64,000 bases of DNA from NCBI GenBank assembly GCA_902362705.1, contig CABIXK010000001.1, forward strand, positions 1 to 64,000, in the 5' to 3' direction. Each line of letters starts with the position of its first letter. Within the stretch, counting starts at the first letter, position 1. A model generated the notes under the pieces. It ran no database searches. It saw only the letters and a list, made by a program, of their open reading frames with translations, and was not told the origin of the DNA. The position numbers and the translations under genes are program-made. Origin of the DNA: Rikenellaceae bacterium (GTDB lineage: Bacteria > Bacteroidota > Bacteroidia > Bacteroidales > Rikenellaceae). Shown piece after piece: positions 1,033 through 64,000 of this stretch.

Positions 1033-3582
1033 TTAGAGCGTGTCGAACGATACGAACTCGAACTCGGCGTCGCCGATCACCTTGTAGGTCAGCTGGTGCG
1101 TCGGAGCAGCGATCGAAGTGCCGGTGTAGATGCCCAACTGGATGTTGTAGAGCACCTCCACGCCCTCCACGGGCTTGGCTTCGGGATGCAGCTGCGTGAG
1201 CACGTGGCCGAGTACCTCGATCGTGCGCTCCTTGAGCAGGGCGGTTATCTGCTCGTCGTTCATCCCCTCGAACGCTGCGGCGTACTGCTCGCGGGCGCTG
1301 TTGGGACGCCAGTCGAGGTTGCCCTGGTAGGCCGAGGCACCCGAGTAGTAGTCGTTGTTGCCGTACGACGAGACATACTTGGCGCCGTCCTCTACGTTGG
1401 CCTTCACCCAGTCCACGCAGGCCTGGAAGTAGAGGGTCGAGAGCGGCTGGTTCTTGCCCGGCGTCAGTACGATCGTCACGCTGGGATCCCATACCCACTT
1501 GCCGTTGTTCTTGATGAACTGGTCGGTCTGCTCCACGATGCCTGCGTTCTTGACCCATGCCGAGCCGTCGAAGACATACTCGTCGGCGCGACGCTCGGTC
1601 GACTTGCCGTTGTAGTAGGCGTAGGCCACGTAGACGCTGGCCTCGGGCTGCGCGTAGGGCTGCTTGAGGCGGAGGAAGTCGGGCAGGTACTTCTCGGGAG
1701 CGTTCGACGAGCTGAAGTCCGAGCGCAGACCCATGGCCGTGTAGTCGGCCGGGTTCACGATGAGCGTGCCTGCGGCTGCGGCCCACTTCGAACCGTCGTA
1801 GTAGTATACGGCGAGCTTCTCCTCGGTGTCGACGGCGCGCGTCGCGAATGCGGCAGCAGCAGCCGTAGCCTCCTCGACGGAGGTGATTACCGTGTTGACA
1901 TACTTGCCGCCGCTGAGCGAGATGAGGTAGCCGGTGACGGTGATCTTCTTGCCGTCGAGCGCCTTGAGCGCCTCCTCGTCGGCGTAGCGGTAGATGCTGC
2001 CCTGGGCGGTAGCGGCGTCGTCGACCTTCACGTTGTAGTTGAAGAAGTTACCCGACTTCGATACCTTGAGCGTACCCGTGTAGGTCACGTAGCGGATGTA
2101 GGACGACTCGATGTAGTTGTCCAGGTCCTCGCCCGTCAGCGCTACGGCCGTAGGGAACTTGACATTGGCGGTGATCGCGGTGGCCGTCACGGTGGGCGAG
2201 CTCAGCTGCATGGTCTTGTTGTAGGCTTCGGCCTTGGCCTTTACGCTCACTACCGTGCCGGCTACGATGTCGGCGGCCGGCTTGCTCTTGGTGTAGACGT
2301 AGATCGAACCGGTGCCGTCGCAGAGCATGAAGCCCTGGGTCGTTACCACGGTCACCACGCCGCGCGTCGTGACGCTCTCCTGCGCGCCGTTGGCCAACAC
2401 GACACCCACGGGGATATAGCTCTCCGTAGCGCCATCGACCGTGAAGTCGGTGCACATGATGTTGACCGACGTGGTCTTGTAGACGCCGATGGTGTAGCCC
2501 GTGGCGGTCACTGTCTGGCCGGCCAGCTCGGGATCGATCAGCGAAGCGTTGGTGTAGGTCGGGCGGACCAGGATGGTCTGGTTGCCGTTAGCCACCTCGA
2601 TGTCGAAGTCGTTGTAACCCGTCTTGCTGTTGGGCGTCACCTTCAGCTTGCCGGTCACGGAGATGAAGGTCGGCTTGTAGTTCTTGGCGTCGATGTAGGC
2701 CTTGAGCTTGGCACCGTCGAAGGCGGTGGCGGCGGGGTAGGCGAACTTGTCGGCTTTGGCCTGGGCCTTGACCTCGGGCGAGCCGATCTGCCACATGCCG
2801 TTGTAGGTCGAGGCCGAACCGCTGACGTCGACCGTCTCGCCCACGGCGAAGTTGCTCGGCTGCTTGGCGTAGACCAGGATGGCCCCCGTGCCGTCGCCCA
2901 GCATGAAGCCCTGCTCGTAGGTAGCCAGCACCTGACCCTGGAGCGTGTAGGTGCCCTCGGCGGTCACGTCGCTCACCTTGTTGTAGGAGGGAACCTCCTC
3001 GCCGCCCGTCGTGGGCTCGTTGTCGGACCACTGGTAGGAAACCACGGCGTAGTCGCCCTCGGCGGCATCCTTCATGCCGGCCTTGAGCAGACCGGGGATG
3101 TAGCGCTCGGGCGCCTTCGACGGGGTGAAGTAGGCGGCGTTAACGTCGGCCCACACGCTCTGGTAGTCGGCGGCCGTGACGGTGTAGTCGCCCGCTGCCC
3201 GGATGGCCGAGAGGGCCTCCGGCAGATCGGTCACCGTGCGGCTGGTCACCTTCACCGACGAGGTGTTGTCGGCCGTGGGGTAGAGCGCTGCGAGGTAGTT
3301 GGGCAGGTACTTGGCGGCCGTGATCGTCTCGGAGAAGTGGCGGTCGGTGGCCAGGTAGCCCAGCTCCTTGCTCTCGCCGTCGGCCTTGGCCAGCGCCTTG
3401 TTGGCGCTGTTGTTGGCGATGGCCTTGTACTCCTCCTCCGTGAGGGTCATCTCGATGTTCTTGACGTCCTTCACGACGGTGCCGTCCTGCAGGCCGTCGA
3501 AGTTATCGTTGTAGTCGTCGCAACCCCCCCCCACGAACATCATGGCCAAGGCTGCTGCGTATGTCAAAATATGCTTGTTCAT
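1033..3582 (-). CDS. Large surface lipoprotein with two OB-fold-like repeats, partner of a TonB receptor
   Basis: An 849-residue predicted lipoprotein of unknown function. The N-terminus is a lipoprotein signal with a hydrophobic stretch followed by VGGGC and Asp residues, so the mature protein starts at Cys 21 or so. Two similar OB-fold-like segments are visible (about residues 207-275 and 400-470), each with a core of the form GxVxxxxxQGFMLxDGTGxIxVYxK. Segments ending in APERYIP and APEKYLP occur before and after them, suggesting an internal duplication. It lies 23 bp downstream of a TonB-dependent receptor gene on the same strand, so the two probably form one operon and one outer-membrane uptake or binding complex. 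The lipobox codons contain a nine-G run, discussed as possible phase variation. No enzyme motif was seen. Confidence 0.75.
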   Translation of the reverse strand: MNKHILTYAAALAMMFVGGGCDDYNDNFDGLQDGTVVKDVKNIEMTLTEEEYKAIANNSANKALAKADGESKELGYLATDRHFSETITAAKYLPNYLAALYPTADNTSSVKVTSRTVTDLPEALSAIRAAGDYTVTAADYQSVWADVNAAYFTPSKAPERYIPGLLKAGMKDAAEGDYAVVSYQWSDNEPTTGGEEVPSYNKVSDVTAEGTYTLQGQVLATYEQGFMLGDGTGAILVYAKQPSNFAVGETVDVSGSASTYNGMWQIGSPEVKAQAKADKFAYPAATAFDGAKLKAYIDAKNYKPTFISVTGKLKVTPNSKTGYNDFDIEVANGNQTILVRPTYTNASLIDPELAGQTVTATGYTIGVYKTTSVNIMCTDFTVDGATESYIPVGVVLANGAQESVTTRGVVTVVTTQGFMLCDGTGSIYVYTKSKPAADIVAGTVVSVKAKAEAYNKTMQLSSPTVTATAITANVKFPTAVALTGEDLDNYIESSYIRYVTYTGTLKVSKSGNFFNYNVKVDDAATAQGSIYRYADEEALKALDGKKITVTGYLISLSGGKYVNTVITSVEEATAAAAAFATRAVDTEEKLAVYYYDGSKWAAAAGTLIVNPADYTAMGLRSDFSSSNAPEKYLPDFLRLKQPYAQPEASVYVAYAYYNGKSTERRADEYVFDGSAWVKNAGIVEQTDQFIKNNGKWVWDPSVTIVLTPGKNQPLSTLYFQACVDWVKANVEDGAKYVSSYGNNDYYSGASAYQGNLDWRPNSAREQYAAAFEGMNDEQITALLKERTIEVLGHVLTQLHPEAKPVEGVEVLYNIQLGIYTGTSIAAPTHQLTYKVIGDAEFEFVSFDTL
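3524..3532. repeat. Nine-base G/C homopolymer in lipobox codons
   Basis: A run of nine C on the + strand (nine G on the coding strand) encodes the Val-Gly-Gly-Gly just before the lipid-attached Cys of the leftward lipoprotein. A gain or loss of one base here would abolish translation beyond residue 20. The present length keeps the gene in frame. Confidence 0.85.
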
Positions 3583-48057: not shown

Positions 48058-51000
48058 TCATACGATATGAATGATTGTTGATTTGGTACTTTGCAGGTTG
48101 TTTGTGCCGGAATAGTCGCTGTACCTGACCATTCCCGACACGATGACGATACGGTCTTTCAGGGCGGAGATTTTCTCCCGGTGGGTTTCGCAAGTCTCGC
48201 TCCAACAGACCATTTCCACCACGTCGTTGTTCTGTTGCAACGTCAGCTTGGCGAACCGCTTGCGTTCGCTGGTTGCCCGGTCTTTGTATGTGTGCTCGGT
48301 CAACTCCGTGACGGAGGCGCATACGGCGGCACGCCGTCCGTCGCTGGCCGGGTTGAGCACGTCGTGAAGGCTCAGGTAGGAGGCTTTGCCTTTCACGAGC
48401 GCACGGGCTTCGGATGCCTCGAAGATACGGCGGTAGTCCACCGAACCGATGCCCGATACGGCAATCTGCTGGCGGCTCCAGAAGTAGTGCCGCCCGACTA
48501 ACTCCTCCGGAAAGTCTTTTTCCGAGAGCGTAAAGCCCAGCTCGGCCGCAGCACGGACAAGCAGGCCGTAACGTTCCGTCACCGTACCGATGCCTTCCAC
48601 TTTGTCGAAGCATCCGGCCAGAATCATGTTCCGCACATGCCGGGCATTGACCGGAACCCGCACAGATTCTTCGGCGTTGTCGGGGTCGTCCCAGTAAGCG
48701 TATTTCTTCAATTTGTACCGGAATATCCGGTGGATGAAGTGCTCGATGGAGGTGTAAGGGCCGTTTTTCTCGCGTTCTTCGACGATGCAGGCAACGGCTT
48801 TGGCCCCGAGCTGTTTGATGCGGCCGAGCGACCAGAAGATCTCATCGGTGCCGTAGTCGGTGAAGAATACCTGCCGGGAGGTATTGATTTCGGGCGGCAC
48901 GATGCGGGCTTTCGAGCAGAGTTCCATCTCGGCCATCAGCAGCGGGATTTCCTTGTCGTCGGCCCACTGTAACGCCACGGTGTAGAAGGCCGTCGGATAG
49001 TTGGCTTTGAGGTAGGCTCCCACGTAGCTGGTGACGGCGTAAGCGGTGGCATGGCTGGCGTTGAAGAGGTAACCGCCGCCGGCCTCAATCATTCCCCAGA
49101 TGTGTTCCGCGTCTTCTTTGGGACACCCTTTGGCGGCAGCTCCCGTCATGAATTTCTCCTTCATGGCGCGGATGACGTCGATTTTTTTCTTGGAGATGAG
49201 TTTCAGCAGCCGAACGCCCTCAGCCAGCGAGAAACCGCCGACTTCACGCGCCATCTGGGCGAGCTGTTCCTGAAAGACCAGTACGCCGTAAGTGTTTTTC
49301 AGGGCGTCGTAGGTTCCCCATAAGTAAACGGGTGCCACCTCCTCACGGCGGCAGAGCAGGTATTTTTCCGCTGAACCGGAATCGAGCGTTGCCGGACGGT
49401 ACAACGCTCCGGCGGCAATCAGGTCACCGATGCTCTGCGGCCGCATGTCTTGCAGGAAACGGGTCATGCCCGGTGAGGAGAACTGGAAGACGTTCTGCGT
49501 GTAGCCTTCCGACAGGATGCGGTACGTCTTCCCGTCGTCCAGTCCGCTGCGCACGATTCCCTCGAAGGAGAGCCCCGCACCGTATTCTCGGTTGCAGATG
49601 TCGATGACGGCTTGTATTTTAGACAGTTCCTTGATGCCGAGACAGTCATTTTTCAGCAACCCGACCTCGTCGATGGAGTATCCGTCCAGCTCGGAAATGA
49701 GCAGGTCGTCCACTTTTTTGATGGGCGTGTAGTCGAAGCATTCCATCGGCTTGCCGTCCTGCTGTTTGGGCGTGATGATGATGGCCGAGGCATGGACGGA
49801 ACCGGAACGCGGCTGACCCATAAGCGGGCGGATGTCCTCGATGACCCTCGGGTACCGTAAAATGAAGTCCCGGACTTTCTTGTTGGTGGTGGCCAGCTTG
49901 AACAGGTCGGTCCAACTCATGTTGTCGTCCCCGAAGATGGCCGTGATGTAGTTCACCACACTGACCGGCACACGGTGTACGCGGCTGACGTTTTTCAGCA
50001 CGGCTTTCATTTTCAGGGTGGTGAGCGTACCGGCGGAGAAGACCTGCTGCCGCCCGTCGGTGTTGTATCGCTGCTCCAAGTATTCCTTGACCTCCTGCCG
50101 GGGTCGGACTGGAAGTCGATGTCCACGTCGGGAAGCTGCCCGCCGGGACCTTGGCGGTAGCCGTCGCCCGAAAAGCTGTCCGTTATCAGGATGCGCTCCG
50201 GAAGTTTTTCCTGCTGGATGTGTACGATTTTCATAGGAGGTCGCTTTGCAGGTTAAACAACAGGTCGCGGTTGTCGAAAAGCACGTCGTCCGCCTCCCGG
50301 AGCTGGTCGGCATAGACCGTGAGGCGGTTCCCGTCACGGACAATCACTAATTCGGCGTCCCGGTCGAGCCGCAGGGTGACGCCATTGTCGAAGCGGATAC
50401 GGACGGCACGGTCCGACAGCACGCGGTCGGTCAGGCGGGTTACACGGTCGGGATAGAGACCGGCACGTTCGGGCAACAGGAAACGCTCGAAGAGCAGGTC
50501 GTACCGGATGGGGTCGATGAGCGTGATGCCTAACAGGTACAGCACGAGCGACCCGCCGGCGGAACCGCGCCCGCACCCCACGAGGATGCCGTTGCGGCGC
50601 GCCCAGTTTACCGTGTCGTACTGCAGAGCATGTAGTCGATGTTGTCGGTCGATTCGAGGATATAGACCTCTTTCTCCAACCGCGTGCGGTACTCCTCCGC
50701 ACGCTCACGGGGCACGAGCCGCCGGAAGCCGTCCTCCAACAGTTGCCGGAACATGGCATAACGGTCGCCGTAACGTTGCTGTTCCTCCGCCGTCATGTCG
50801 TAACGGGGCATGTAGTTCCGTTCGGTCTGGTAACGGGCTTCGGCTCCCTCGGCGATTTCCACCGTGTGGCGGCACATCCGCTCGAAAAGCGCGTCCGTGT
50901 TCCACCGCTCGCCGTCGAAGAGCGCGCAGACGGCGGCATAGTGTTCGTCGATGTCCTTGAAGTATTGGTCGTCGCTTTGGGCATGGGCGGCACCCGTGGC

Positions 51001-51610
51001 GATTTTGTTGAGCACGGTTTTCGTGCGGGCATCGTCTCTGTCCGGATAGTAGCAGTCGGCGATGAGTACCGGCTCGACCAGAAAACTGTCGTTCCGCTCG
51101 TCGTAGAAGGTGTGGAAGAAATGGGCGGTCGCCTTCAGCACCTCGGCATCCAGACGTTCGGCCTTGTACTCCGACAAATCCACCTGGTAGAATACATTGT
51201 CGAAGGTTTCCCGCAGGGCTTTCACCGCAGGCAGGTTCTTTTCCATCCAGAACGGCGAGAGTTTGCCGAAGACCAATACATTCCCTTCTCCCCGGCGGAG
51301 CAGTTCGGGAAGCGGAACGGTCGCATCCACAGCATCCACCATGACGGCTTTCTGGATGCGCAGCAGGTTCCTGAGTCCGCGCTGGCTCTGGCAGTAGATT
51401 TTCACCTCCACTTTTTCGCCTTCGTGCGCCAGTGTGCAGGTGTATCCGATGACGGGACGGATGCCGGCCTTGTCGCAGGCTTTCTGGAATGCCAACGTGG
51501 CGCCCATCGTGTTCCGGTCGCAAATGCCGAGGGCGGTATGGCCCATCCACACGGCTTTCCGCACCCACCGCGACACGTCACCCGAGGCGTTGAGCAGTTC
51601 GTAGGGAGTT
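48058..51610 (-). pseudogene. Phage/ICE-type DNA polymerase III alpha gene (dnaE), truncated and frameshifted
   Basis: Pieces of a DnaE-like polymerase occur in order on the leftward strand. The first (from about 51610, open as TPYELLNASGDVSRWVRKAV) holds most of the PHP domain (LGICDRNTMGATLAFQKACD) to NIDYML, but lacks the 5' start. A missing base near 50630 separates it from the palm segment [17 protein letters not shown] and [15 protein letters not shown]. That frame ends at 50231 with an ATGA overlap to [20 protein letters not shown], followed by the catalytic LPDVDIDFQSD. A further one-base loss near 50104 leads into the long 3' frame (RQEVKEYLEQRYN, DYTPIKKVDDLLISELDG, FNASHATAYAVTSYVGAYLK) with the fingers and OB domains. 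The ATGA overlap might be a natural split; the two single-base shifts are not. Confidence 0.75.
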
Positions 51611-54831: not shown

Positions 54832-56562
54832 ATGAAGCGTTTTCCTATTTTTATAACTCTTGTTTCGACATCTCTGTTCGTTGCCTGCACCGATTCGGGG
54901 CAAGCTGCAAGCGCATTGAACCGGGCGGAGTCATTGATGGCGGATCGGCCGGACAGTGCCAAAATCATATTGGAGTCCATCGACCCGAAGGCCCTGCATA
55001 CCCGAGCGGGCAAGGCCCGTTTCGCCCTGCTGTATTCCCAGGCGCTGGATAAGAATTATATCGATGTGGACCGGGACACCTTGATCTCCCGGGCGCTGAA
55101 GTATTACCGGCATCGGGGCAATGCGCATGACCGCGCGCTGGCCTATTACTACTCCGGCCGCGTTTACGAAAATGCCGCGAAGGTCGATTCGGCGATCCTG
55201 CTGTTCAACCAGGCGGAGCAAGCGGCCCTCAAGACGGACGATTGTTATCTGAAAGGATTGATCGCCAATGTTCAGGCCGGTCTGTATGCCTCGCAGCGCT
55301 ACCTGGATGCGGCCCGAAAGAGATACCTCGAAGCGGCCGTCTGTTATGCGAAGACGGGCCATGAGCAGAACCAGCTGCGTTCGTTGATAGGCGCCCTTTC
55401 GTCGATGCCTCCCGACAGGCAGTATGCCGGTCGGCAGCATTGTCTGATTCGAGCCGAGAAGCTGGCGGTCGCGACCGGCGACCGATCGGCCCTGCTCTAT
55501 CTGGCCCGTTATCGGGCCCATCTTCAGAAAAACGCCGGAGACTATGAGGGTGCTTTAACGACCCTGCGAAAAGGGGTTGCGGAGTACGCCGGTGGCAAGA
55601 CTCCGAAGTCGTATTATTCCATCTTGAGCAGCATCCATATCAAGCGCCGGCAGCCGGATTCGGCATCCGTATACCTCGAACCCCTGCTTTCGGATGCCGG
55701 GGCAGCACCCCGGGACCGGATCGAGTATTGCTACATGCGAAGTCAGATCTGCGCGTTGAACGGGCGATACGACGAGGCACTGGTCTTTTGCAACCGGGCC
55801 TTGTCGATCAGCGACTCCCTCTATTTTGTCGAGAAAGAACGCGCCATACCCGAGCTGAAGGCCAAATATCGGAACGAGCAGCTGGCCCTCCGCAACGAAT
55901 ACCTGCGTCAGATCGGCAAATATCGAGCGGTCGTATATGCCGTCGTGTCGATTCTTATGGTGTTCGTGTTTTTGTGGCGGCTGAATCTGCGGCGGAAAAA
56001 GATCCTGCGCCAGAAGCAGGAGATCGAAGAGTATCTCAATACCATATCGCGTCTGAAGGGCGAGTATGAGATGCTACGCACGCAGCGCGACGATCGGTCG
56101 GCGGGTGGGGAGTCGCATCCGATGGACACGGAGATCGTGGCCCGGCGCATCGATTTTCTGAAGCAGATACTCGACATCGCATCCAATTTCAAGCACGACA
56201 AGGAGAAGTTTCACGAAAAGATTGAAGGGCTGCTGACCAAGGGCGGGAGCGGCGCGAACAGAAAAGAGCCGAACGAGATTTTTCCGATATTCCAGGACCT
56301 GCTCGACTCCCGGCAGCCGGGCATCGTAGCCTACGTCGGGTCGAGATACCCTCTCTCCGAGCAGGAGCTCGCGCTCTATTGCATGATCTGCATGGGCATT
56401 TCGAAATCGGCGATTTGCTTCGTGCTGGAGAGCAAAAGCAAAACTTACTACAACTACAGAAATCTGCTGCGGAACAAACTCGCCATCACAAACGACGAAA
56501 TGACGATCCCGCAGCATTTCGAACGCATGTGTTCGGAGTACCGAGCGAGCCTGCGGAGATAG
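54832..56562 (+). CDS. TPR-containing membrane-bound regulator
   Basis: A 576-residue protein. Signal/lipobox MKRFPIFITLVSTSLFVAC suggests export of the N-terminal half, which is built of tetratricopeptide repeats (about 25-340; DRALAYYYSGRVYENAAKVD, GRYDEALVFCNRALSISD). A transmembrane helix follows (about 365-385, VVYAVVSILMVFVFLW), then a coiled coil (RQKQEIEEYLNTISRLKGEY) and a C-terminal helical domain (YPLSEQELALYCMICMGISK then KTYYNYRNLLRNKLAI) that resembles a LuxR-like helix-turn-helix. Bacteroidetes regulators of this layout are common next to peptide and GLPGLI loci. It probably senses an envelope signal and controls the genes to its right (inference). Confidence 0.72.
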   Translation: MKRFPIFITLVSTSLFVACTDSGQAASALNRAESLMADRPDSAKIILESIDPKALHTRAGKARFALLYSQALDKNYIDVDRDTLISRALKYYRHRGNAHDRALAYYYSGRVYENAAKVDSAILLFNQAEQAALKTDDCYLKGLIANVQAGLYASQRYLDAARKRYLEAAVCYAKTGHEQNQLRSLIGALSSMPPDRQYAGRQHCLIRAEKLAVATGDRSALLYLARYRAHLQKNAGDYEGALTTLRKGVAEYAGGKTPKSYYSILSSIHIKRRQPDSASVYLEPLLSDAGAAPRDRIEYCYMRSQICALNGRYDEALVFCNRALSISDSLYFVEKERAIPELKAKYRNEQLALRNEYLRQIGKYRAVVYAVVSILMVFVFLWRLNLRRKKILRQKQEIEEYLNTISRLKGEYEMLRTQRDDRSAGGESHPMDTEIVARRIDFLKQILDIASNFKHDKEKFHEKIEGLLTKGGSGANRKEPNEIFPIFQDLLDSRQPGIVAYVGSRYPLSEQELALYCMICMGISKSAICFVLESKSKTYYNYRNLLRNKLAITNDEMTIPQHFERMCSEYRASLRR

Positions 56563-56587
56563 GGCGTCTCGTCGCCGCCGTGGTTCG

Positions 56588-56617
56588 AGTCCGTGAATGA
56601 AAATTCACGGACTTTTT
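56588..56617 (+). terminator. Rho-independent terminator after the TPR regulator
   Basis: A perfect 11-bp stem (agtccgtgaat / attcacggact) with a GAAA loop is followed by five T. The next 190 bp contains an AT-rich promoter-like region (TATATTTTG near 56769) before the DUF3244 gene. Confidence 0.88.
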
Positions 56618-56807
56618 CGTGTTGCGCAGTTGTCGGCCACGCCGTTTCGACCGCGAAACGGAGGCTGGGGCGCCATAGGGTAATTAAAATTATTTAATAG
56701 TAATATTTTTAGGGATTTGTTGTTTGCGTTCGGGATATGTCCCATCGCACGATTTTGTCGTCTGTATTATATTTTGTAATAAGTCAAATCATATAAAAAA
56801 TTTACTC

Positions 56808-57206
56808 ATGAAACATCTTGTTCTTTCGCTCGCAGCGCTCTTCGCCTTTGCCGGATCCGGCAATGCACGATCATCCGAAACCGCCCCGAAGGGGGATTCC
56901 GATGATATCGTAATACTCACGGAAATCAAACCGGGCGAAGAGACGCCGGTCCGTACCCGCTCCGCCGTGCCCGACGTCTCGGCCTACATCGATTACGAGC
57001 TGGCGCAGCTGGAGATCGCATTCAACACCTGCGTAGGTAAGGCACGAATAGAGATCGTCGACGGTTGGGGGCGGTGCGTCCACTCCTCTTCGTGCGATAC
57101 CGAAATGGAGCCCGCGGTCTGGATCTCGCTGCCGTCGGTCGCGGCCGATTACGTTTTGAAAATCGATACCTCCTCGGCCGTATATACGGGAGCTTTTTCG
57201 CTCTGA
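56808..57206 (+). CDS. Secreted DUF3244-type protein
   Basis: A 132-residue protein with signal MKHLVLSLAALFAFAGSGNA and one beta-sandwich domain. AYIDYELAQLEIAFNTCVGK, ARIEIVDGWGRCVHS, PAVWISLPSVAADYVLKID and the closing VYTGAFSL match the strand order of DUF3244 (the family consensus ends in a Gly-x-Phe-x-Leu strand). DUF3244 proteins are small Bacteroidetes exported proteins, often beside TPR regulators and GLPGLI genes. It has two cysteines (in NTCVGK and RCVHS plus one in SSCDT, three in all), so not all can pair. Role unknown. Confidence 0.75.
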   Translation: MKHLVLSLAALFAFAGSGNARSSETAPKGDSDDIVILTEIKPGEETPVRTRSAVPDVSAYIDYELAQLEIAFNTCVGKARIEIVDGWGRCVHSSSCDTEMEPAVWISLPSVAADYVLKIDTSSAVYTGAFSL

Positions 57207-57317
57207 CTCCGATCGGCGGGCCGGCCCGCCGCCCGGAGCGCGGCGTGTTCTTCCTCGACGCCGGGGTATCCGGCAGGAATACGCCATCTGGGAGGGTTGC
57301 ATTTAGTTTAAAAAATT

Positions 57318-58213
57318 ATGAAGAAAATCCTCTTTTTCCTGCTTTTGGCCCTCCTGGCGGGCCGGGCATACGGGCAACGGAACAACGACTTCGAGTCGCT
57401 GACCCTCATGGCCGACAAAGACGACATAGCGGCTTGCGGCTTCGTCCGTTCCGCACAGCCGCCCGTCGACACCTCTCGGCTGCGCGTCGTCTACCGGCTG
57501 ACCTACCGCGCCGCGCCCGACGCAAAACCCCGTGAAACGGAGTGGCTGCTGGCCATAGGCGCCCGCCATACGGACTTTCGCAGCTGCGCCTACGCGCGGG
57601 CCGACACCCTGGCTTCGGCCAGCCGCAAGGGCGGTTTGCCCGGCCCATGGTGCCGTTCGAGCCGCTCGGCGAAGTCCTGCGATCGATCGCGGAGGGACGG
57701 TTCGAAGTCTTGCAGCGCATTCCGTTCGAGCGGCGCCATGTCGTCCGCTACGACGAGAGCGCCGCAGCACCCGAGTGGCGGATGCTCGGCCGAACTGACA
57801 CGGTCGGCGGATACCTCTGCCATGCCGCCGCGACCACCTATGGCGGCCGGGAGTGGACGGCATGGTTCGCCCCCGCGGTGCCGACGGATGCCGGACCGTG
57901 GAAATTGTTCGGACTGCCGGGGCTGATCCTGCGGGCCGGGGACGCCACGGGCTCCTACGCCTTCGAGCCGGTGAAGATCGAGCAGGCTGCGGTGCCCATG
58001 CCCGGCTGCGGCGTCCCGATCCGCACGGAGAGCAAACGCAAATGGCTGCGCATGGAGTGCGGCTTTCACGGATCGCCCGCTTTCTATTTCAGCGCCGGCG
58101 GCAAGCATCTGTTCTACATGCGAGGCTCGAAGGTGCCGCTCGGCGGCGAGTGGCGCATCACCTATAACCCCGTGGAGTTCGATATGGCGGAAACCGAAAA
58201 GCCCGTAGAGTAG
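57318..58213 (+). pseudogene. GLPGLI family gene with one frameshift
   Basis: The first part (from ATG 57318) encodes signal MKKILFFLLLALLAGRAYG and an N-terminal domain up to RADTLASASRKGG. The rest continues in the -1 frame as ARPMVPFEPLGEVLR through YGGREWTAWFAP, the family signature GPWKLFGLPGLIL, and the C-terminal RITYNPVEFDMAE. The shift lies in ggcggtttgccc near 57628-57642 and needs one added base to be repaired. GLPGLI proteins (TIGR01200) are exported Bacteroidetes proteins of unknown function, repeatedly linked to double-glycine leader peptides. A paralogue at 60513 is intact. A sequencing error would equally explain the break. Confidence 0.75.
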
Positions 58214-58236
58214 GTAAATTTCAAAAAATTGATTTT

Positions 58237-58455
58237 ATGAAAAGATTTCGGAACCAGCGCTTGACCAAAGCCGAAATGAATCGCCTGCATGGCGGTCTGT
58301 CTACCAAATTCTGTTCGTGCTACTCCTTGGACGGGGAGCAAGAGTATCTGACATGGTTCCTGCCTGCCGATGCGTCTGCGGAGGAGATCATCGCCTCCAT
58401 CGACGTCCATTGTCAGGATGGGAGCCGGGGTACCTGCACCAACGTTTCGGCATAG
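58237..58455 (+). CDS. Double-glycine leader peptide precursor with four-cysteine core
   Basis: A 72-residue precursor. The leader MKRFRNQRLTKAEMNRLHGG ends in Gly19-Gly20 and matches the Bacteroidetes GG-leader pattern (Leu-Ser/Thr-Lys-x-x-Met-x-x-Val/Leu-x-Gly-Gly, TIGR04149-like). The 52-residue core has Cys 26, 28, 59 and 67, an acidic helix between (PADASAEEIIASID), and a Gly/Ser/Thr-rich tail. Four cysteines allow two disulfides. It lies 23 bp after the frameshifted GLPGLI gene and 34 bp before the VKOR fusion, so it is in one operon with them. The C39 ABC exporter downstream is the expected leader peptidase. Confidence 0.78.
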   Translation: MKRFRNQRLTKAEMNRLHGGLSTKFCSCYSLDGEQEYLTWFLPADASAEEIIASIDVHCQDGSRGTCTNVSA

Positions 58456-58489
58456 ACTTTAGGAGTGGTTTCAATTTAAAACAACGCAA

Positions 58490-60016
58490 ATGCCTCTTTT
58501 GCTCCATTTGTTCCTCTCCCGCATCGGGATCCGCATCAGCCTGCTTCGGATCCGGGAGGCGTATGCCCGCCATGCGCTGCCGCACAGCGTGCGGGCGCTG
58601 AGCGACACGCTCGATGCGCTGCGCGTGCCCAATATGGTGTGCCGGCTGGAGTTCGGGCAGCTCTTCGAGATCGGAGGCCCCTTTCTGGTCAAGGCCGGCG
58701 AGGCGGAGTACCCCTTCCTGCTGGTCGAGCGGCTCGACCGCGAGCGGCAGACGATTGCCCTGCGCACGGCCGAGGGCCGATACGCCGAACTGCCGTTCGA
58801 CGCCTTCCGCGCCGTATGGGACGGGACGGTGCTGCTGGCCGAGAAGGGCGACGAGATCGTCGAGGAGCCGTGGCCGCTCTATCGGGTCCGGCAGGGGCTG
58901 GATGCGCTCGACCGAAGGTGGGGTCGTTGGCTCGCGGGGCTGCTCGTCGTGGTGGCGGCCGTCGCGGCGCTGCGGGCGCCCGAGTTTGCGGAGCTGCGCT
59001 ATCTCGTGAAGGCGGCGGGCCTCGCCCTCTCGTTCGCGGTCGTCGTCAAGGCGTCGTTCGACCCGCATCTCGCGCAGGGCTTCTGCCGCCTGGGCCGGCG
59101 CTCCGACTGCAACGAGGTCTTCCGCGCGGCCGGGGCCAAGCTCTTCGGGTGGGTGTCGCTCGGCGAGCTGTCGGCGGTCTACTTCGCCGCCTCGATCCTT
59201 TGGGGGTTGTTCGTCGCCGCGGACCCCGGCGCCCTCTTCCCGTGGCTCGATATGCTCGCTTTGTCGACGGTCGGCTACTCGCTCGTCTGGCAGATGCGCC
59301 ACCGCAGGTGGTGCCCGCTGTGTCTGGCCATCGACGCCGTGCTGGTGGCGGACGCCGCGCTCGAGGCGCTGCTCGGAGCGCCGTGGCGGCCGGTGCCCGA
59401 TGCGGCCTTCGCGGTCGACGCCCTGCTCTTCGGCCTGCTGTTCGGGGCCGGCGTGCTGGCGCTCCGCAGGATCGTCGTCGCGGCGGAGCGCGTGCGGGAG
59501 ACGGATCGGCTGAAGTACAAGCACGAACGGCTGCTGAGCGACAGCGCGCTATTCTGGCAACTGCTCGAACGGCAGCCGAAAGCGGCCGCGGAGTGCAGCT
59601 CCTGCATGCCGATCACCAACTACGCCGAGGCGGAGCACACCCTCACGGTGGTGATGAATCCCTCGTGTCCCAAGTGCGCCGAGGTCCATCGGGCGCTCGC
59701 CGGCTTGGAGGGCTACCGCATCGAGCTGCTCTTCGCCGTGAACGAGGGCGACGGGCGGTCGCGCGACGCCGCCCTGCGCATGATCTCGTCGGGCATCTCG
59801 GACGAGTGGCCCCAGACCGAGCGCATCGTCGGCGCGTGGTACGAGCGGCACGAGTTACCGCCTGGTCAGGCGGTTCACCCGCTGGCGGGCGAGGACCTCG
59901 ACCGGCACCGCGACTACTGCCGGGCGGTCGGGATCACCGGCACGCCGACGATCCTCGTCGACGGCCGGCGGCTGCCCGATCTGTACGACGCGACGGATTT
60001 GAAATATCTGTTGTAA
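58490..60016 (+). CDS. C39-like / vitamin K epoxide reductase / thioredoxin fusion protein
   Basis: A 508-residue inner-membrane protein. Residues 1-125 resemble a peptidase C39 fold (HSVRALSDTLDALRVPNMVC, GGPFLVKAGEAEYPFLLVER) without the catalytic Cys-Gly-Pro start, so it may only bind leaders. The VKOR domain (about 135-330) has several membrane helices, a loop cysteine pair in GFCRLGRRSDCNEV and the active CxxC in WCPLCLAIDAVLVAD. The C-terminal thioredoxin/DsbA-like domain (about 360-508) has CPKC in VMNPSCPKCAEVHRAL and the cis-Pro loop GITGTPTILVDG. Such proteins oxidise cysteines and hand electrons to quinone. Sitting between two cysteine-containing GG-leader peptides, it probably forms their disulfides (inference). 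Confidence 0.87.
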   Translation: MPLLLHLFLSRIGIRISLLRIREAYARHALPHSVRALSDTLDALRVPNMVCRLEFGQLFEIGGPFLVKAGEAEYPFLLVERLDRERQTIALRTAEGRYAELPFDAFRAVWDGTVLLAEKGDEIVEEPWPLYRVRQGLDALDRRWGRWLAGLLVVVAAVAALRAPEFAELRYLVKAAGLALSFAVVVKASFDPHLAQGFCRLGRRSDCNEVFRAAGAKLFGWVSLGELSAVYFAASILWGLFVAADPGALFPWLDMLALSTVGYSLVWQMRHRRWCPLCLAIDAVLVADAALEALLGAPWRPVPDAAFAVDALLFGLLFGAGVLALRRIVVAAERVRETDRLKYKHERLLSDSALFWQLLERQPKAAAECSSCMPITNYAEAEHTLTVVMNPSCPKCAEVHRALAGLEGYRIELLFAVNEGDGRSRDAALRMISSGISDEWPQTERIVGAWYERHELPPGQAVHPLAGEDLDRHRDYCRAVGITGTPTILVDGRRLPDLYDATDLKYLL

Positions 60017-60172
60017 CGGACACGCGCTGTCCGACCGCTATTCGCCGCGGCCCTGCCCGCCGCGGTGAATAGGAAGCCTTCCCGCGAGAAGGCCGCATCG
60101 AAGTTTGACTAAAAATTAAAAGGGCATTGCATAAGTGATTTATTTTGCCGACCTTACCGATGGATGCGCGGC

Positions 60173-60217
60173 GAACGGCGGTTGCGGGCCACCCGTCGAG
60201 AAGCAAAAGTCCGAACC
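60173..60217 (+). promoter_or_regulatory. Conserved upstream element of leader-peptide genes, copy 1
   Basis: A 45-bp block (from gaacggcggttgcgg to aagcaaaagtccgaacc) recurs at 63904-63948 with only three differences, each about 30 bp before a GG-leader peptide start. The block is probably transcribed leader or promoter DNA. The wider 234-bp gap also shares weaker similarity with the gap before the third peptide gene. Confidence 0.65.
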
Positions 60218-60250
60218 AATCAAATCTAAACTTTAAAAACTACTATTATT

Positions 60251-60457
60251 ATGAAAACGATGAAGAACTTCGCTGCACAGCAGCTCTCGAAGAAGCAGAT
60301 GAACGAAGTAAAGGGCGGCGATGGCCACAATCCGAATCAGTTATGGGAATGTCACTGGGAAGGTGGTATGACGATCATCGCAGAAAAGGATTTCCCGCAA
60401 CTGGAGGAAGATATGTATATATCCGGCATAGAGGAGATTAACTGCAAAATGATATAA
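60251..60457 (+). CDS. Double-glycine leader peptide precursor with two-cysteine core
   Basis: A 68-residue precursor. The leader contains FAAQQLSKKQMNEVKGG, the textbook Bacteroidetes GG-leader motif, with cleavage expected after Gly 23. The 45-residue core has Cys 34 and Cys 65, three Trp/aromatic positions near the first Cys (LWECHWEGG), and an acidic middle (LEEDMYISGIEEIN). The two cysteines can form one disulfide closing a loop of 30 residues. It is followed by a strong hairpin and a GLPGLI gene. Its own upstream block is conserved with the next peptide gene. Confidence 0.82.
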   Translation: MKTMKNFAAQQLSKKQMNEVKGGDGHNPNQLWECHWEGGMTIIAEKDFPQLEEDMYISGIEEINCKMI

Positions 60458-60463
60458 AATCCC

Positions 60464-60499
60464 TTACCGGCCGACCAGTTATTTCGGGTCGGCCGGTAA
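60464..60499 (+). other. Strong intra-operon hairpin after the leader peptide gene
   Basis: A perfect 13-bp stem (ttaccggccgacc / ggtcggccggtaa) with a ten-base loop, 6 bp after the peptide stop. On the + strand it is followed by A, not T, so it is not a standard intrinsic terminator. It may protect the 3' end of the short peptide mRNA or lower downstream expression, as in many peptide operons. Confidence 0.7.
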
Positions 60500-60512
60500 A
60501 AAACACAAGATT

Positions 60513-61460
60513 ATGGTTCAACGTTTTTTTCTTTTATGCTGTCTGCTGACTTCCCTGGCCGGATATGCCCAGAATCGGAGCCAATACACGCGCCGCATTT
60601 TTCTGGCTTCCGCCTCGAAATATGCGCCGCGCCCTTGGAATCTCCGCGACAGCCTGATCCGGGATACCTCCGTTTGCCGGGTCTATTATCGGCATCGGTT
60701 CGTGATGGATACTATGCAGCATAAGGAGGTAACCACCGTGATGGTGTGCGACATTGGAGAGAGCTACACGTCGTATTTTAGTCTGGCCCTGCGGCTCTCC
60801 CATGTGATTTTTACGAAAGTGAAGGCCGAGGCGGAGAAGATGGGCCGCTATGCCGGCATGAGCGTGCGTTATACGCCGACGGAAAGCGAACGGGAGCTGA
60901 AAGAGTTCGCAGGTGATGCCGGAACGGTCAATAGCGAAATATGGCTCGATCGGTCGCAGTGCACGCTGACAGAGCGGGCGGCCGACTATGCAGAAGAAAA
61001 CATGGCTTATGAATATGAAGAGCCGCAGCCCGTACTGGGTTGGAATGTATCCGGGGAGCATCGGCAAATATGCGGATACGATTGTATCAAGGCAACTATC
61101 CGATTCCGCGGCCGGGAGTGGACAGTGTGGTTTGCGCCGGAGATACCGCTTCCCTATGGTCCATGGAAATTGGGCGGTCTTCCCGGGCTTATCCTCGAGG
61201 CTGAAGACTGCCGAAAACACTTCGTATGGGAGTGCTGCGGCATTGAGCAGGAGGTCCGGCCGATGGCACGTTACGTCATTCCTACCCGCAAGCTGACCCG
61301 CAGCAAGTTTAATGACTGGATGACCCGGTTCCATCGTTTCCCTTACGAAGTCATTGACGGTGGAAGAGGAACGACGCTTATTCAAACCAACACCGCGCAG
61401 GGCTTGAAAGCGATGGACAGCGATTGGACGCTGCCTTATAACCCCATAGAACTCGAATAA
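60513..61460 (+). CDS. GLPGLI family protein
   Basis: A 315-residue exported protein: signal MVQRFFLLCCLLTSLAGYAQ, a strand-rich first half (VCRVYYRHRFVMDTMQHKEV, YTSYFSLALR), a middle with GYDCIKATIRFRGREWTVWF, the defining GPWKLGGLPGLILEAED, and C-terminal LPYNPIELE. The paralogue at 57318 shares the Gly-Arg-Glu-Trp-Thr and Pro-Trp-Lys segments. It lies between a GG-leader peptide and the C39 exporter (17-bp gap), suggesting a periplasmic or surface role in handling the peptide. Molecular function is unknown. Confidence 0.85.
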   Translation: MVQRFFLLCCLLTSLAGYAQNRSQYTRRIFLASASKYAPRPWNLRDSLIRDTSVCRVYYRHRFVMDTMQHKEVTTVMVCDIGESYTSYFSLALRLSHVIFTKVKAEAEKMGRYAGMSVRYTPTESERELKEFAGDAGTVNSEIWLDRSQCTLTERAADYAEENMAYEYEEPQPVLGWNVSGEHRQICGYDCIKATIRFRGREWTVWFAPEIPLPYGPWKLGGLPGLILEAEDCRKHFVWECCGIEQEVRPMARYVIPTRKLTRSKFNDWMTRFHRFPYEVIDGGRGTTLIQTNTAQGLKAMDSDWTLPYNPIELE

Positions 61461-61477
61461 AATAAAGCCCTCCGACC

Positions 61478-63748
61478 ATGTCTTTCCCCCACTACAAGCA
61501 ACTCGATGCGATGGACTGCGGCCCGACGTCGCTTCGAATCGTCGCGCAGCACTACGGGCGCCACTACTCGCTCCAAAGCCTCCGAGATCGGTGCCACATC
61601 ACGCGCGAGGGGGTCTCGCTGCTGGGGATCAGCGACGCTGCCGAGACCATCGGCCTGCGCACAACGGGCGTGAAGATCACCTGGGAGCAGCTGCGCGATG
61701 AGGCGGTGCTGCCGTGCATCGTGCATTGGAACCAGCAGCACTTCGTAGTGGTCTACCGCATCGCCCGGCGTCGGGGGAGGTGGTGGGTGTGGGTCTCCGA
61801 CCCGGCGCAGGGGCTGCTGAAGTACGACGAGGAGCAGTTCCGCCGGGCATGGGAGCAGAGCCGTGCGACGGTGCCCCTCGCCTCCCTGCTTCCCGGGCCG
61901 CAGGAGGGGCCGCCCGCCGTCCTGCCCGTCTCGCCCGGCTCGGCCCGAGGCAAGGGCATCGCCCTGCTGTTGGAGCCGACGCCGGAGTTTTACAGAGAAA
62001 AAGGCGACGAGGACAAGCGACTGCGGTTCGGCCAGCTGCTGCACTACCTGCGGCCCTACAAGAGCTACCTCGTGCAGCTTGCGCTGGCGATGCTCACGGC
62101 CAGCCTGCTGAGCCTCATCCTGCCGTTCCTCACACAGTCGGTCGTCGACAAGGGCATCGGCACGGGCAACCTCTCGTTCGTCGTGATGATGCTCGTGGCG
62201 CAGGTGGTGCTGGTGCTGGGCCAGCTGGCCAACAACCTCATCCGCTCGTGGCTCATGCTGCACATGACCACGCGCATCAGTATCTCGCTCATCTCCGATT
62301 TCCTCTCGAAGCTCATGCGCCTGCCCATCGCCTTCTTCGACTCGAAGATGGTGGGCGACATCATGCAGCGCATCGGCGATTACAACCGCATCCAGACCTT
62401 CCTCACGGGGTCTTTGCTCAGCATGGCCATGGCCGTCGTCTCGTTCGCGATCTATGGCGCCGTGATGGGCGGCTACGATCTGACGATCCTCGGCATCTTC
62501 CTCCTGGGCAGCGCGCTCTACGTGGGTTGGATCCTTCTGTTCATGAAGCGGCGGCGCAAGCTCGACTACATGCGCTTCCAGGAGGCCTCGGCCAACCAGA
62601 GCAACATCGTGCAGCTTATCAACGGCATGCAGGAGATCAAGCTCAACAACTGCGAGAAGCAGAAGCGCTGGGAGTGGGAGCGCATCCAGGCGCGGCTGTT
62701 CCAGGTCTCGATCAAGGGCCTCGTGCTGGGGCAGACGCAGGAGGTGGGCGGCACGTTCATCGACCAGACCAAGAACGTGGTGACCTCGTTCCTCGCCGCC
62801 TCGGCCGTTATCGAGGGCGAGATGACCCTCGGCATGATGATGGCCCTGCAATACATCATCGGGCAGCTCAACGCCCCGCTCTCGCAGTTCATCCAGTTCG
62901 TACAGGCGACGCAGGACGCCAAGATTTCGTTGGAACGACTTTCTGAAATTCAGGAGAAGGACGACGAGGAGCCAGCCGGCGAGGAGCGCCTCCGCGAGAT
63001 CCCCCGCCACGCCGACATCGAGTTCCGGGGCGTGACGTTCCAGTACGACGGACCCCACTCGGCCAAGGCGCTGGACGACGTGTCGGTGACGATTCCGGCT
63101 GACCGGGTGACGGCCATCGTCGGGGCCAGCGGCTCGGGCAAGACCACCATGCTCAAGATGATGCTGGGCTTCTACGCCCCCTCGGCGGGAGAGGTGCTGC
63201 TCGCCGGGCGCAAGATCGCGCACTACAGCGCCTCGCGCTGGCGCCGCGCCTGCGGCACGGTCATGCAGGAGGGCTACGTCTTCTCCGACACCATCGCGAA
63301 CAATATCGGTGTTTCGGACGAGCGGCCCGACATGGAGCGTGTGCGGCGCGCCGCGGCGATCGCCAACATCGACGCCTTCATCGAGGAGCTGCCGCTGGGC
63401 TACAACACCAAGATCGGCGCCGACGGCCACGGACTGAGCGTCGGGCAGAAACAGCGCCTTTTGATCGCCCGCGCGGCCTACAAGGATGCCGAGTACCTCT
63501 TCTTCGACGAGGCCACCAACTCGCTCGACGCCAACAACGAGCGCACGATCATGGAGCGACTGGAGCGGCTGTTCGAGAACAAGACCGTCGTGGTCGTCGC
63601 ACATCGACTTTCGACCGTAAAGAAAGCTGACAACATTGTTGTCCTCGACCATGGCCGCATCGTCGAGCAGGGCACGCACTCAGAACTTACCGCCAAACGC
63701 GGATACTACTACGAGCTGGTCAAGAACCAGTTGGAGTTGGGAAATTGA
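61478..63748 (+). CDS. Peptidase C39-containing ABC transporter (leader-cleaving peptide exporter)
   Basis: A 756-residue exporter. The N-terminal C39 cysteine peptidase (1-150) starts HYKQLDAMDCGPTSLRIV with catalytic Cys 14, His in HWNQQHFVVVYRI and Asp in VSDPAQGLL. The membrane domain (about 185-470) has six helices and the C-terminal ATPase has Walker A GASGSGKTT, Q-loop region, signature LSVGQKQRLLIARA, Walker B EYLFFDEATNSLD and H-loop VVVVAHRLS. All catalytic residues are present. It would cleave the GG-leader peptides and export the cores. An acidic linker (EKDDEEPAGEERL) joins the domains. It is co-transcribed with the GLPGLI gene. Confidence 0.95.
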   Translation: MSFPHYKQLDAMDCGPTSLRIVAQHYGRHYSLQSLRDRCHITREGVSLLGISDAAETIGLRTTGVKITWEQLRDEAVLPCIVHWNQQHFVVVYRIARRRGRWWVWVSDPAQGLLKYDEEQFRRAWEQSRATVPLASLLPGPQEGPPAVLPVSPGSARGKGIALLLEPTPEFYREKGDEDKRLRFGQLLHYLRPYKSYLVQLALAMLTASLLSLILPFLTQSVVDKGIGTGNLSFVVMMLVAQVVLVLGQLANNLIRSWLMLHMTTRISISLISDFLSKLMRLPIAFFDSKMVGDIMQRIGDYNRIQTFLTGSLLSMAMAVVSFAIYGAVMGGYDLTILGIFLLGSALYVGWILLFMKRRRKLDYMRFQEASANQSNIVQLINGMQEIKLNNCEKQKRWEWERIQARLFQVSIKGLVLGQTQEVGGTFIDQTKNVVTSFLAASAVIEGEMTLGMMMALQYIIGQLNAPLSQFIQFVQATQDAKISLERLSEIQEKDDEEPAGEERLREIPRHADIEFRGVTFQYDGPHSAKALDDVSVTIPADRVTAIVGASGSGKTTMLKMMLGFYAPSAGEVLLAGRKIAHYSASRWRRACGTVMQEGYVFSDTIANNIGVSDERPDMERVRRAAAIANIDAFIEELPLGYNTKIGADGHGLSVGQKQRLLIARAAYKDAEYLFFDEATNSLDANNERTIMERLERLFENKTVVVVAHRLSTVKKADNIVVLDHGRIVEQGTHSELTAKRGYYYELVKNQLELGN

Positions 63749-63903
63749 GATAGATGCCGGATCGCGGTCCCGACCGCCGTGACCGACGAAAAAGCCTTCC
63801 TGCGAGGAGGCAAAACCGAGCCCGCCAGCTCACAAGTTTTACAAAAACGCAGAAAGGCAGTGCAAAAGTAGCAAACTTTTTTGAGAGGCGGAAGCCTGTC
63901 GAA

Positions 63904-63948
63904 GAACGGCGGTTGCGGACAACCCGTCGACAAGCAAAAGTCCGAACC
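63904..63948 (+). promoter_or_regulatory. Conserved upstream element of leader-peptide genes, copy 2
   Basis: 42 of 45 bases match the block at 60173-60217, including cggcggttgcgg, acccgtcga and aagcaaaagtccgaacc. It precedes the third peptide gene by 30 bp. Confidence 0.65.
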
Positions 63949-63978
63949 GTCAAAACCTAAACCTTAAAACCTACGACT

Positions 63979-64000
63979 ATGAAATCGATGAAGAACTTCG
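63979..64000 (+). CDS. Third double-glycine leader peptide precursor, partial (window end)
   Basis: Only the first seven codons are in the window (MKSMKNF). They match the start of the two-cysteine precursor (MKTMKNF) and follow the same conserved upstream block, so a third GG-leader peptide gene very probably begins here. Confidence 0.6.

Follow-up and report, generated by a model that had tools for sequence, protein, structure and literature searches.

The closest described systems are the bacteroidetocins (class IIf; Coyne et al. 2019, PMC6671954), for which the accessible part of that report describes a Gly-Gly (GG) leader peptide, a C39 exporter and a five-transmembrane (five-TM) protein, along with an oxidoreductase that is present in most, though not every, published locus, whose deletion attenuates activity and which the authors propose makes disulfides. 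The locus that we describe here lies at positions 54,832-64,000 of a 64,000-nucleotide stretch of DNA from an Alistipes-like gut bacterium of the Rikenellaceae (contig CABIXK010000001.1, positions 1 to 64,000; hereafter the window), and similarly contains GG peptides with at least two cysteines (four in PRE1, two in PRE2), a thiol oxidoreductase and a C39-ABC exporter (PCAT). An initial annotation had listed two complete precursors with these cysteine counts, the start of a third, the exporter and two GLPGLI genes, all of which are present (Table 1). There are several important differences from the bacteroidetocins. All genes between 54,832 and 63,748 are precursors or belong to other families, with no five-helix TM gene among them; relatives of the locus carry arrays in which a shared leader precedes cores of unrelated sequence and every core has its own exported partner; the cores are mostly acidic, whereas the accessible text describes bacteroidetocins A and B as somewhat basic (PMC6671954); and, as a possible further difference, the oxidase bears a C39-like domain. 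We give roughly even odds (about 0.5) to the reading that the locus encodes small GG-leader peptides that are disulfide-bonded by a cytoplasm-facing, leader-docking VKOR oxidase before C39-ABC export.

Individual parts of the locus also have described counterparts. Like bacterial VKOR-thioredoxin fusions, the oxidase matches the VKOR profile and has four VKOR cysteines and a C-terminal thioredoxin domain, but it differs from them in its C39-like N-terminal domain, one more helix and a reversed charge pattern; extra N-terminal domains on VKORs of Bacteroidetes and some other groups are mentioned in the accessible part of PMC4555120. The C39-like domain (CLD) of type I transporters such as HlyB likewise has a C39 fold without the catalytic cysteine, with substrate tethering reported in the portion of PMC6363468 available, whereas here the domain is on the oxidase and the exporter retains its own MDCG-bearing C39 domain. 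The leaders resemble those of TIGR04149, the GG-Bacteroidales precursors of radical-SAM-modified ribosomally synthesized and post-translationally modified peptides (RiPPs), with PRE2 matching at E 2.6e-4; however, PRE2 (20.8 bits) and PRE1 (12.4 bits) are below the 25-bit cut-off, and the genes of 54,832-63,748 include none of the radical-SAM type. In the main text of a survey of Bacteroidales RiPP clusters (PMC10352776) the terms VKOR, thioredoxin and GLPGLI do not occur. A literature search on the C39-VKOR link, GLPGLI and inverted VKOR, with subscription journals mostly outside its coverage, found nothing directly relevant. The archaeal VKOR of Aeropyrum pernix is said, by the title of a 2017 paper by Hibender et al., to drive disulfide formation in two compartments, and we know of no leader guidance or peptide-exporter link for this enzyme.

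The oxidase matches VKOR at E 2e-7 (31.7 bits, cut-off 27.5) and Thioredoxin_4 at 2e-5, and its cysteines 199, 207, 275 and 278 in VKOR and 393 and 396 in the thioredoxin domain are conserved in every one of the 14 proteins aligned. This bears out the initial description of a VKOR-thioredoxin protein with intact CxxC motifs. At the N terminus the Pfam C39-like match is E 0.055 in the window copy and 9e-6, above cut-off, in the relative L001, and alignment of this domain with the exporter peptidase domains gives an hhalign probability of 96.4 (E 1e-9). Its catalytic cysteine is missing from all 12 aligned fusions and the histidine from 11 of them; the MDCG motif is retained by 6 of 6 exporters. 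A structure model of the fusion (14 sequences, mean pLDDT 76, pTM 0.46) matches the folds of PCAT1 and of the ComA peptidase (3k8u; TM-score 0.71 on the target, 2.6 Å) and, for the thioredoxin part, those of DsbG, ScsC and BdbD. According to the accessible part of PMC6363468, a groove of LahT150 away from the active site holds leader residues V-4, L-7 and L-12, and C39-like domains without the cysteine are said to tether substrate. The leaders of the present family carry V or L at -4, M at -7 and L at -12, matching the positions held by LahT150, and we infer that the C39-like domain docks the leader. C39-like/thioredoxin-like proteins without a VKOR domain are also encoded beside TPR and DUF3244 genes at L015:12378-13580 and L016:1724-2695, with no precursor recognised in the surroundings of either.

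An extra helix (about residues 147-163) precedes the five VKOR helices of the fusion, which would place the C39-like domain, both VKOR cysteine pairs and the thioredoxin domain on one side of the membrane. We addressed which side this is by counting lysines plus arginines (K+R) per membrane side in 78 proteins, namely the window copy together with 46 relatives, 10 Bacteroidales fusions, and 21 VKORs that came from 80 scanned Bacteroidota genomes, 18 of which had a match. These VKORs served as controls because a PDB sequence search with the fusion gave six matches, of DsbC or ScsC type throughout (best E 0.006) and with no VKOR among them. The automatic helix parse passed 66 proteins and failed 12, which were dropped (L083, L086, L087, L090, L091, L098, the window copy, P0021, P0043, G324, G509 and G517); fusions were separated from ordinary VKORs by a length above 480 residues, which mislabelled the truncated P0043 and G509 before they were dropped. 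All 58 parsed long fusions have a K+R excess on the VKOR-catalytic side (median 10 vs 2), whereas K+R is lower on that side in 7 of the 8 parsed ordinary VKORs, with a tie in the other (median 3 vs 11; Mann-Whitney 5e-6). The window copy, counted outside the automatic parse, has 15 vs 2 with the catalytic side higher, and the same pattern is shown by 7 distant fusions of 21-28% identity. By the charge rule the VKOR is predicted to be inverted, with its active sites facing the cytoplasm.

The pseudo-C39 domain together with the inverted charge pattern points to a leader-docked oxidase that acts before export. Specifically, the C39-like domain would grip the shared leader of a precursor in the cytoplasm, where the thioredoxin domain would close the cysteine pairs of the core and would then be re-oxidised by VKOR and quinone. 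The exporter's C39 domain would subsequently cut after Gly-Gly and a PCAT-HlyD-TolC path would release the core outside, with the cognate partner meeting its own peptide in the envelope. The pathway through PCAT1 has been described as having room for a small protein in its folded state. Less certainly, the cores may serve to compete with closely related bacteria once they are outside the cell, and each cognate partner may protect the producer or aid folding in the envelope.

We next consider the precursors. A profile built from 12 precursors matched 167 proteins, 120 of them among the matches listed, and a leader-only query with the core masked matched 41; the two combined gave 129 proteins, of which 127 were parsed (P0181 and P0182 were not) into 44 core clusters. 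The majority cysteine count is 2 in 28 clusters, 4 in 10, 3 in three, 1 in two and 0 in one, so that 39 of 44 are even (binomial 1.4e-7, with truncated cores retained, a two-member tie of 2 and 3 scored as even, and the zero-cysteine cluster being a truncated core of 19 residues). Of the 39 parsed proteins from the leader-only query, 31 have 2 or 4 cysteines, 7 an odd number and 1 none. Precursors without cysteines or with randomly odd counts, which the initial annotation had named as refuting its proposal, are thus not the rule. Among 73 full-length two-cysteine cores the first cysteine is at position 3-11, and the last is at most 10 residues from the C terminus in 94.5%. In one 19-protein core family, sorted by eye, seven members have four cysteines, eight only the second and fourth (the window type), two only the first and third, and two have three. 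Cysteines in this family are lost pairwise, which points to bonds 1-3 and 2-4, with 17 of 19 members in agreement. In a structure prediction of PRE2 the core is beta-beta-alpha-beta with pLDDT 85-89 from residue 31 on and a low value for the leader, and a PDB fold search with this model gave no match at E <= 0.001 (best 0.54). Net charge is negative in 97 of 119 full-length cores, zero in 11 and positive in 11, with a median of -3. In viral contigs 299 stretches fit the precursor pattern, none of which was confirmed. A differing GG precursor with 8 cysteines is located 3' of the exporter in G065 (L042:4043-4303) and is followed by genes for proteins of 472 and 447 residues.

The precursors and the oxidase also occur together. 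Across 180 genomes of the genus to which the nearest genome, G001, belongs, the precursor profile matches six and the fusion profile nine, with a full-length fusion in five; G008, G010, G073 and G064 contain C39-like or thioredoxin parts only, and G070 has such a second copy besides. Pfam VKOR is restricted to the five full-length-fusion genomes, with no other VKOR among the 180. Precursors are present in 5 of 5 fusion genomes and the fusion in 5 of 6 precursor genomes (Fisher p 4e-9), which is the co-occurrence that the initial annotation had anticipated. Its proposal of a peptide family matured by a dedicated oxidase is upheld in part, namely as regards a family with mostly even cysteine counts that is tied to the fusion. 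An ordinary reading of the oxidase is opposed by the charge rule, which predicts active sites in the cytoplasm and not in the envelope. Across the order the fusion profile matches 12 of 393 genomes. At 11 fusion-profile places outside the genus with wide flanks, a PCAT is present in six (L058, L059, L062, L064, L066 and L067), and seven GG peptides beside fusions outside the genus have 4 or 6 cysteines (one each in L059, L061 and L064 and four in L062); GG peptides in genomes without a listed fusion match have 3, 2 and 5 (L076, L077 and L078, respectively). A second type of leader-sharing array is found at L062:10492-12611, where four precursors with 4-6 cysteines lie by a C39-VKOR-thioredoxin fusion, a PCAT and HlyD. 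In G488, from another family, two four-cysteine precursors have a near-identical leader and differing cores, each followed by a TlpA-like gene, with PCAT and HlyD after the cassettes and a fusion at the edge of another contig.

Precursors in the relatives are organised as cassettes. In 17 of 17 tabulated leader-matched Alistipes cassettes the next gene is GLPGLI or DUF4369/TlpA-like (PRE1 is outside this table because the oxidase gene comes next, and the 8-cysteine peptide of L042 was excluded), and the N termini of the partners resemble signal peptides or lipoboxes by eye. The initial annotation had regarded GLPGLI proteins as partners, which holds in that they are an exported partner family, but they are one of two alternatives found 3' of precursors, the TlpA-like proteins being the other. 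A PDB search with GLPGLI gave weak links only, namely PNGase F-II at E 0.006 and 7zgn, named as a 'Glpgli family protein', at E 0.027. A stem of at least about 9 bp and variable sequence is present between precursor and partner in 16 of 19 folded gaps (the 17 cassettes plus two of G488), the exceptions being G198_1, G064_3 and G488_1.

Comparison of G171, which has six copies of the pre-precursor block, with the isolate Alistipes muris DSM 112343 revealed long matching blocks of 92-97% identity that stop at 3443, 10112 and 13038 of L038, at most 2 nt from leader ends, and resume later; two cassettes are common to both, a replacement has occurred at the first, and A. muris lacks at least three. 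One identical core occurs with three leaders (P0055-P0057) and with a fourth in L004, a contig from a metagenome-assembled genome (MAG) that tracks the window up to mid-leader and G171 thereafter. The crossover stretch common to the window and G171 is about 26 nt, short for an assembler join, and L004, being from a MAG, may reflect either recombination or assembly. Given this uncertain origin, the case for exchange rests on G171 relative to the A. muris isolate and on the one core with several leaders; in the two relatives, the alignments show cassettes to have been swapped at the end of the leader. Core and partner similarity are correlated across the 17 cassettes (Mantel rho 0.37, 1 of 10000 permutations), across 14 without near-duplicates (G070_2, G070_3 and G064_1 left out; rho 0.32, 17 of 10000) and across the 11 GLPGLI cassettes only (rho 0.46, 4 of 10000). 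Taken tentatively, at somewhat less than an even chance, a leader-guided cytoplasmic disulfide synthase in Bacteroidota and, in Alistipes, leader-recombining cassettes with their own exported partners would amount to a mix-and-match miniprotein arsenal, in which cores are free to diversify because exporter and oxidase both read only the leader.

Several observations weigh against the proposal of a leader-docking cytoplasmic oxidase and its exported cores. The peptide, the bond, the cleavage and the activity are all predictions from sequence. The topology is drawn from charge, with 12 of 78 proteins including the window copy having failed the parse and one control tied; the fusion sequences are related, so the 58 are not independent, and their non-catalytic loops are short. 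The single-domain VKOR L087, one of the dropped proteins, seems reversed by eye as well. Five core clusters have an odd majority, one of which is a consistent three-cysteine family, and zero cysteines are present in the GG peptide of L067, which lies next to a PCAT and a VKOR relative. G064 carries three two-cysteine precursors and no VKOR, and the co-occurrence is partly circular since the precursor profile came mainly from fusion-found loci. The leader control in the Mantel analysis correlates too, more weakly (0.30, 353 of 10000). Many membrane-active bacteriocins are not acidic, in contrast to the mostly acidic cores found here. Finally, WCxPC is kept in 9 of 9 TlpA-like partners, which suits a redox or folding role over immunity. 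As an observation in its own right, L087 is from Bacteroidota and has one additional helix at the N terminus and a cysteine loop rich in K and R, without a domain of C39 length.

The conservation of WCxPC bears on what the partners do. That they are maturation factors (foldase, isomerase or chaperone) and not immunity proteins, with peptides that could be signals or surface factors, is a serious contender that we put just short of even. The WCxPC motif of the TlpA-like partners favours folding, the cores are acidic and predicted to fold, and bacteroidetocin producers self-inhibit and have no immunity protein as far as the accessible part of PMC6671954 goes. Pulling the other way, core and partner co-diversify and partner genes without an adjoining precursor are present in G171, G064, G065 and G488, as expected of orphan immunity genes, and this pairing together with the orphan genes favours immunity; the GLPGLI partners, moreover, lack a thioredoxin domain.

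We regard it as rather unlikely that the oxidase has the ordinary orientation, in which it would face the periplasm and oxidise exported cores after leader removal, with the C39-like domain as a relic or a tether to the exporter. Known bacterial VKOR/DsbA pairs do work in the envelope (a general statement to this effect is in the accessible part of PMC11208910), the thioredoxin domain is like the periplasmic DsbG, ScsC and BdbD folds, and in the bacteroidetocin work the oxidoreductase is given the role of forming the disulfides, with the compartment unnamed in the accessible text (PMC6671954). However, the charge pattern of every parsed fusion is opposite to that of 7 of 8 ordinary VKORs, and the extra helix sets the C39-like domain on the active-site side. 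The C39 domain of such exporters, furthermore, removes the leader in the cytoplasm. A plain bacteroidetocin (class IIf) cluster with extra genes would account for a GG peptide with paired cysteines, a thiol oxidoreductase and a C39-ABC exporter, but is improbable given one leader with several unrelated acidic cores, a partner gene per cassette and no five-TM gene in 54,832-63,748. Still less probable is a decaying or misassembled locus, as suggested by the broken frame of GLPGLI no. 1, the split polymerase gene of the window and the MAG origin of L004, because the fusion, exporter, PRE1, PRE2 and GLPGLI no. 2 are intact, the fusion protein cluster is present on 334 contigs and the A. muris isolate carries an intact relative of the locus.

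Table 1. Features at the end of the window (positions 54,832-64,000)
Feature	Positions	Strand	Description
TPR protein	54832..56562	+	TPR motifs; possible regulator
DUF3244 protein	56808..57206	+	PF11589 E 5.8e-5, 23.4 bits, just under the cut-off of 25
GLPGLI gene no. 1, frame broken	57318..58213	+	TIGR01200 E 3e-27, 95.7 bits, downstream open reading frame
Precursor PRE1	58237..58455	+	72 residues; leader MKRFRNQRLTKAEMNRLHGG (divergent); 4 core cysteines
C39-like/VKOR/thioredoxin oxidase	58490..60016	+	508 residues; profile matches
C39-like domain without catalytic cysteine	58490..58864	+	residues 1-125, approximate
VKOR domain	59003..59356	+	residues 172-289; PF07884
Thioredoxin domain	59630..59998	+	residues about 381-503; PF13098, PF13462, PF01323
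Repeat block 5' of PRE2	60173..60249	+	84% identity to 63904-63980
Precursor PRE2	60251..60457	+	68 residues; leader MKTMKNFAAQQLSKKQMNEVKGG; 2 core cysteines
13-bp stem-loop between PRE2 and partner gene	60464..60499	+	
GLPGLI partner no. 2	60513..61460	+	TIGR01200 E 6e-41, 140.7 bits (cut-off 50)
C39-ABC exporter (PCAT)	61478..63748	+	MDCG motif intact
Second repeat block and third precursor start	63904..64000	+	start ATGAAATCGATGAAGAACTTCG at 63979-64000

Several features of the locus end need comment. The TPR protein matches the BT3442/SusR type far below cut-off (77 vs 940 bits), and its relatives stand at the head of the locus in L001, L003, L005 and L042; the DUF3244 gene, the C39-like domain of the oxidase and the HlyD and TolC genes of relatives are additions to the initial annotation. 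In a three-frame view GLPGLI no. 1 is split over two open reading frames with the frame broken between them, and the downstream one passes the family cut-off of 50 bits. At 48058-51576 (-), matches to PHP, alpha NTPase, finger and HHH mark a gene of the DNA polymerase III alpha type that is scattered over separate open reading frames; with this second gene split in the same window, the broken frame of GLPGLI no. 1 may come from a sequencing error and not from decay. Relatives of PRE1 are P0147 and P0149. The 77-nt block precedes both PRE2 and the third precursor start. The exporter matches Peptidase_C39 (E 1.1e-29), ABC_membrane (6e-26) and ABC_tran (2e-28), and in relatives HlyD and TolC genes lie downstream of it. 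The closest named loci are from Alistipes, and G001 has 22% of the window's words. The exact TAnnTTTG -7 motif was absent from the 160 nt upstream of eight starts.

The Rfam DUF805b RNA motif is present at 58184-58216 (+) of the window and at L075:1828-1860 (+) (37.1 and 38 bits), ending about 20 nt 5' of a GG precursor start in these two distant loci; at gathering score it was not found in L038, L003, L005, L042 or L043. Within the arrays of relatives, an outer-membrane barrel-type gene (carboxypeptidase-regulatory domain plus a weak Plug match) is located 3' of a GLPGLI gene at L001:5340-7979, L005:5289-7976 and L043:11722-14373, and no such gene is present between 56562 and 63748 of the window.

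An oxidoreductase serving GG peptides was already proposed for the bacteroidetocins in the accessible part of PMC6671954, so the chemistry put forward in the initial annotation is not new. Relative to the literature found, what appears new is the C39-like domain with its predicted inversion, the leader-bounded exchange of cassettes and the two interchangeable partner families. The usual view of bacterial peptides with disulfide bonds is that their oxidation takes place outside the cytoplasm. If the proposed cytoplasmic step is correct, a leader-recognising oxidase would offer a general route to miniproteins that are locked by disulfides and span many core sequences. It would also account for dozens of unrelated cores sharing one leader, and it could be turned into a tool for production. 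The 334 contigs with this fusion protein cluster point to a large stock of exported peptides in the gut, most of them not yet named.

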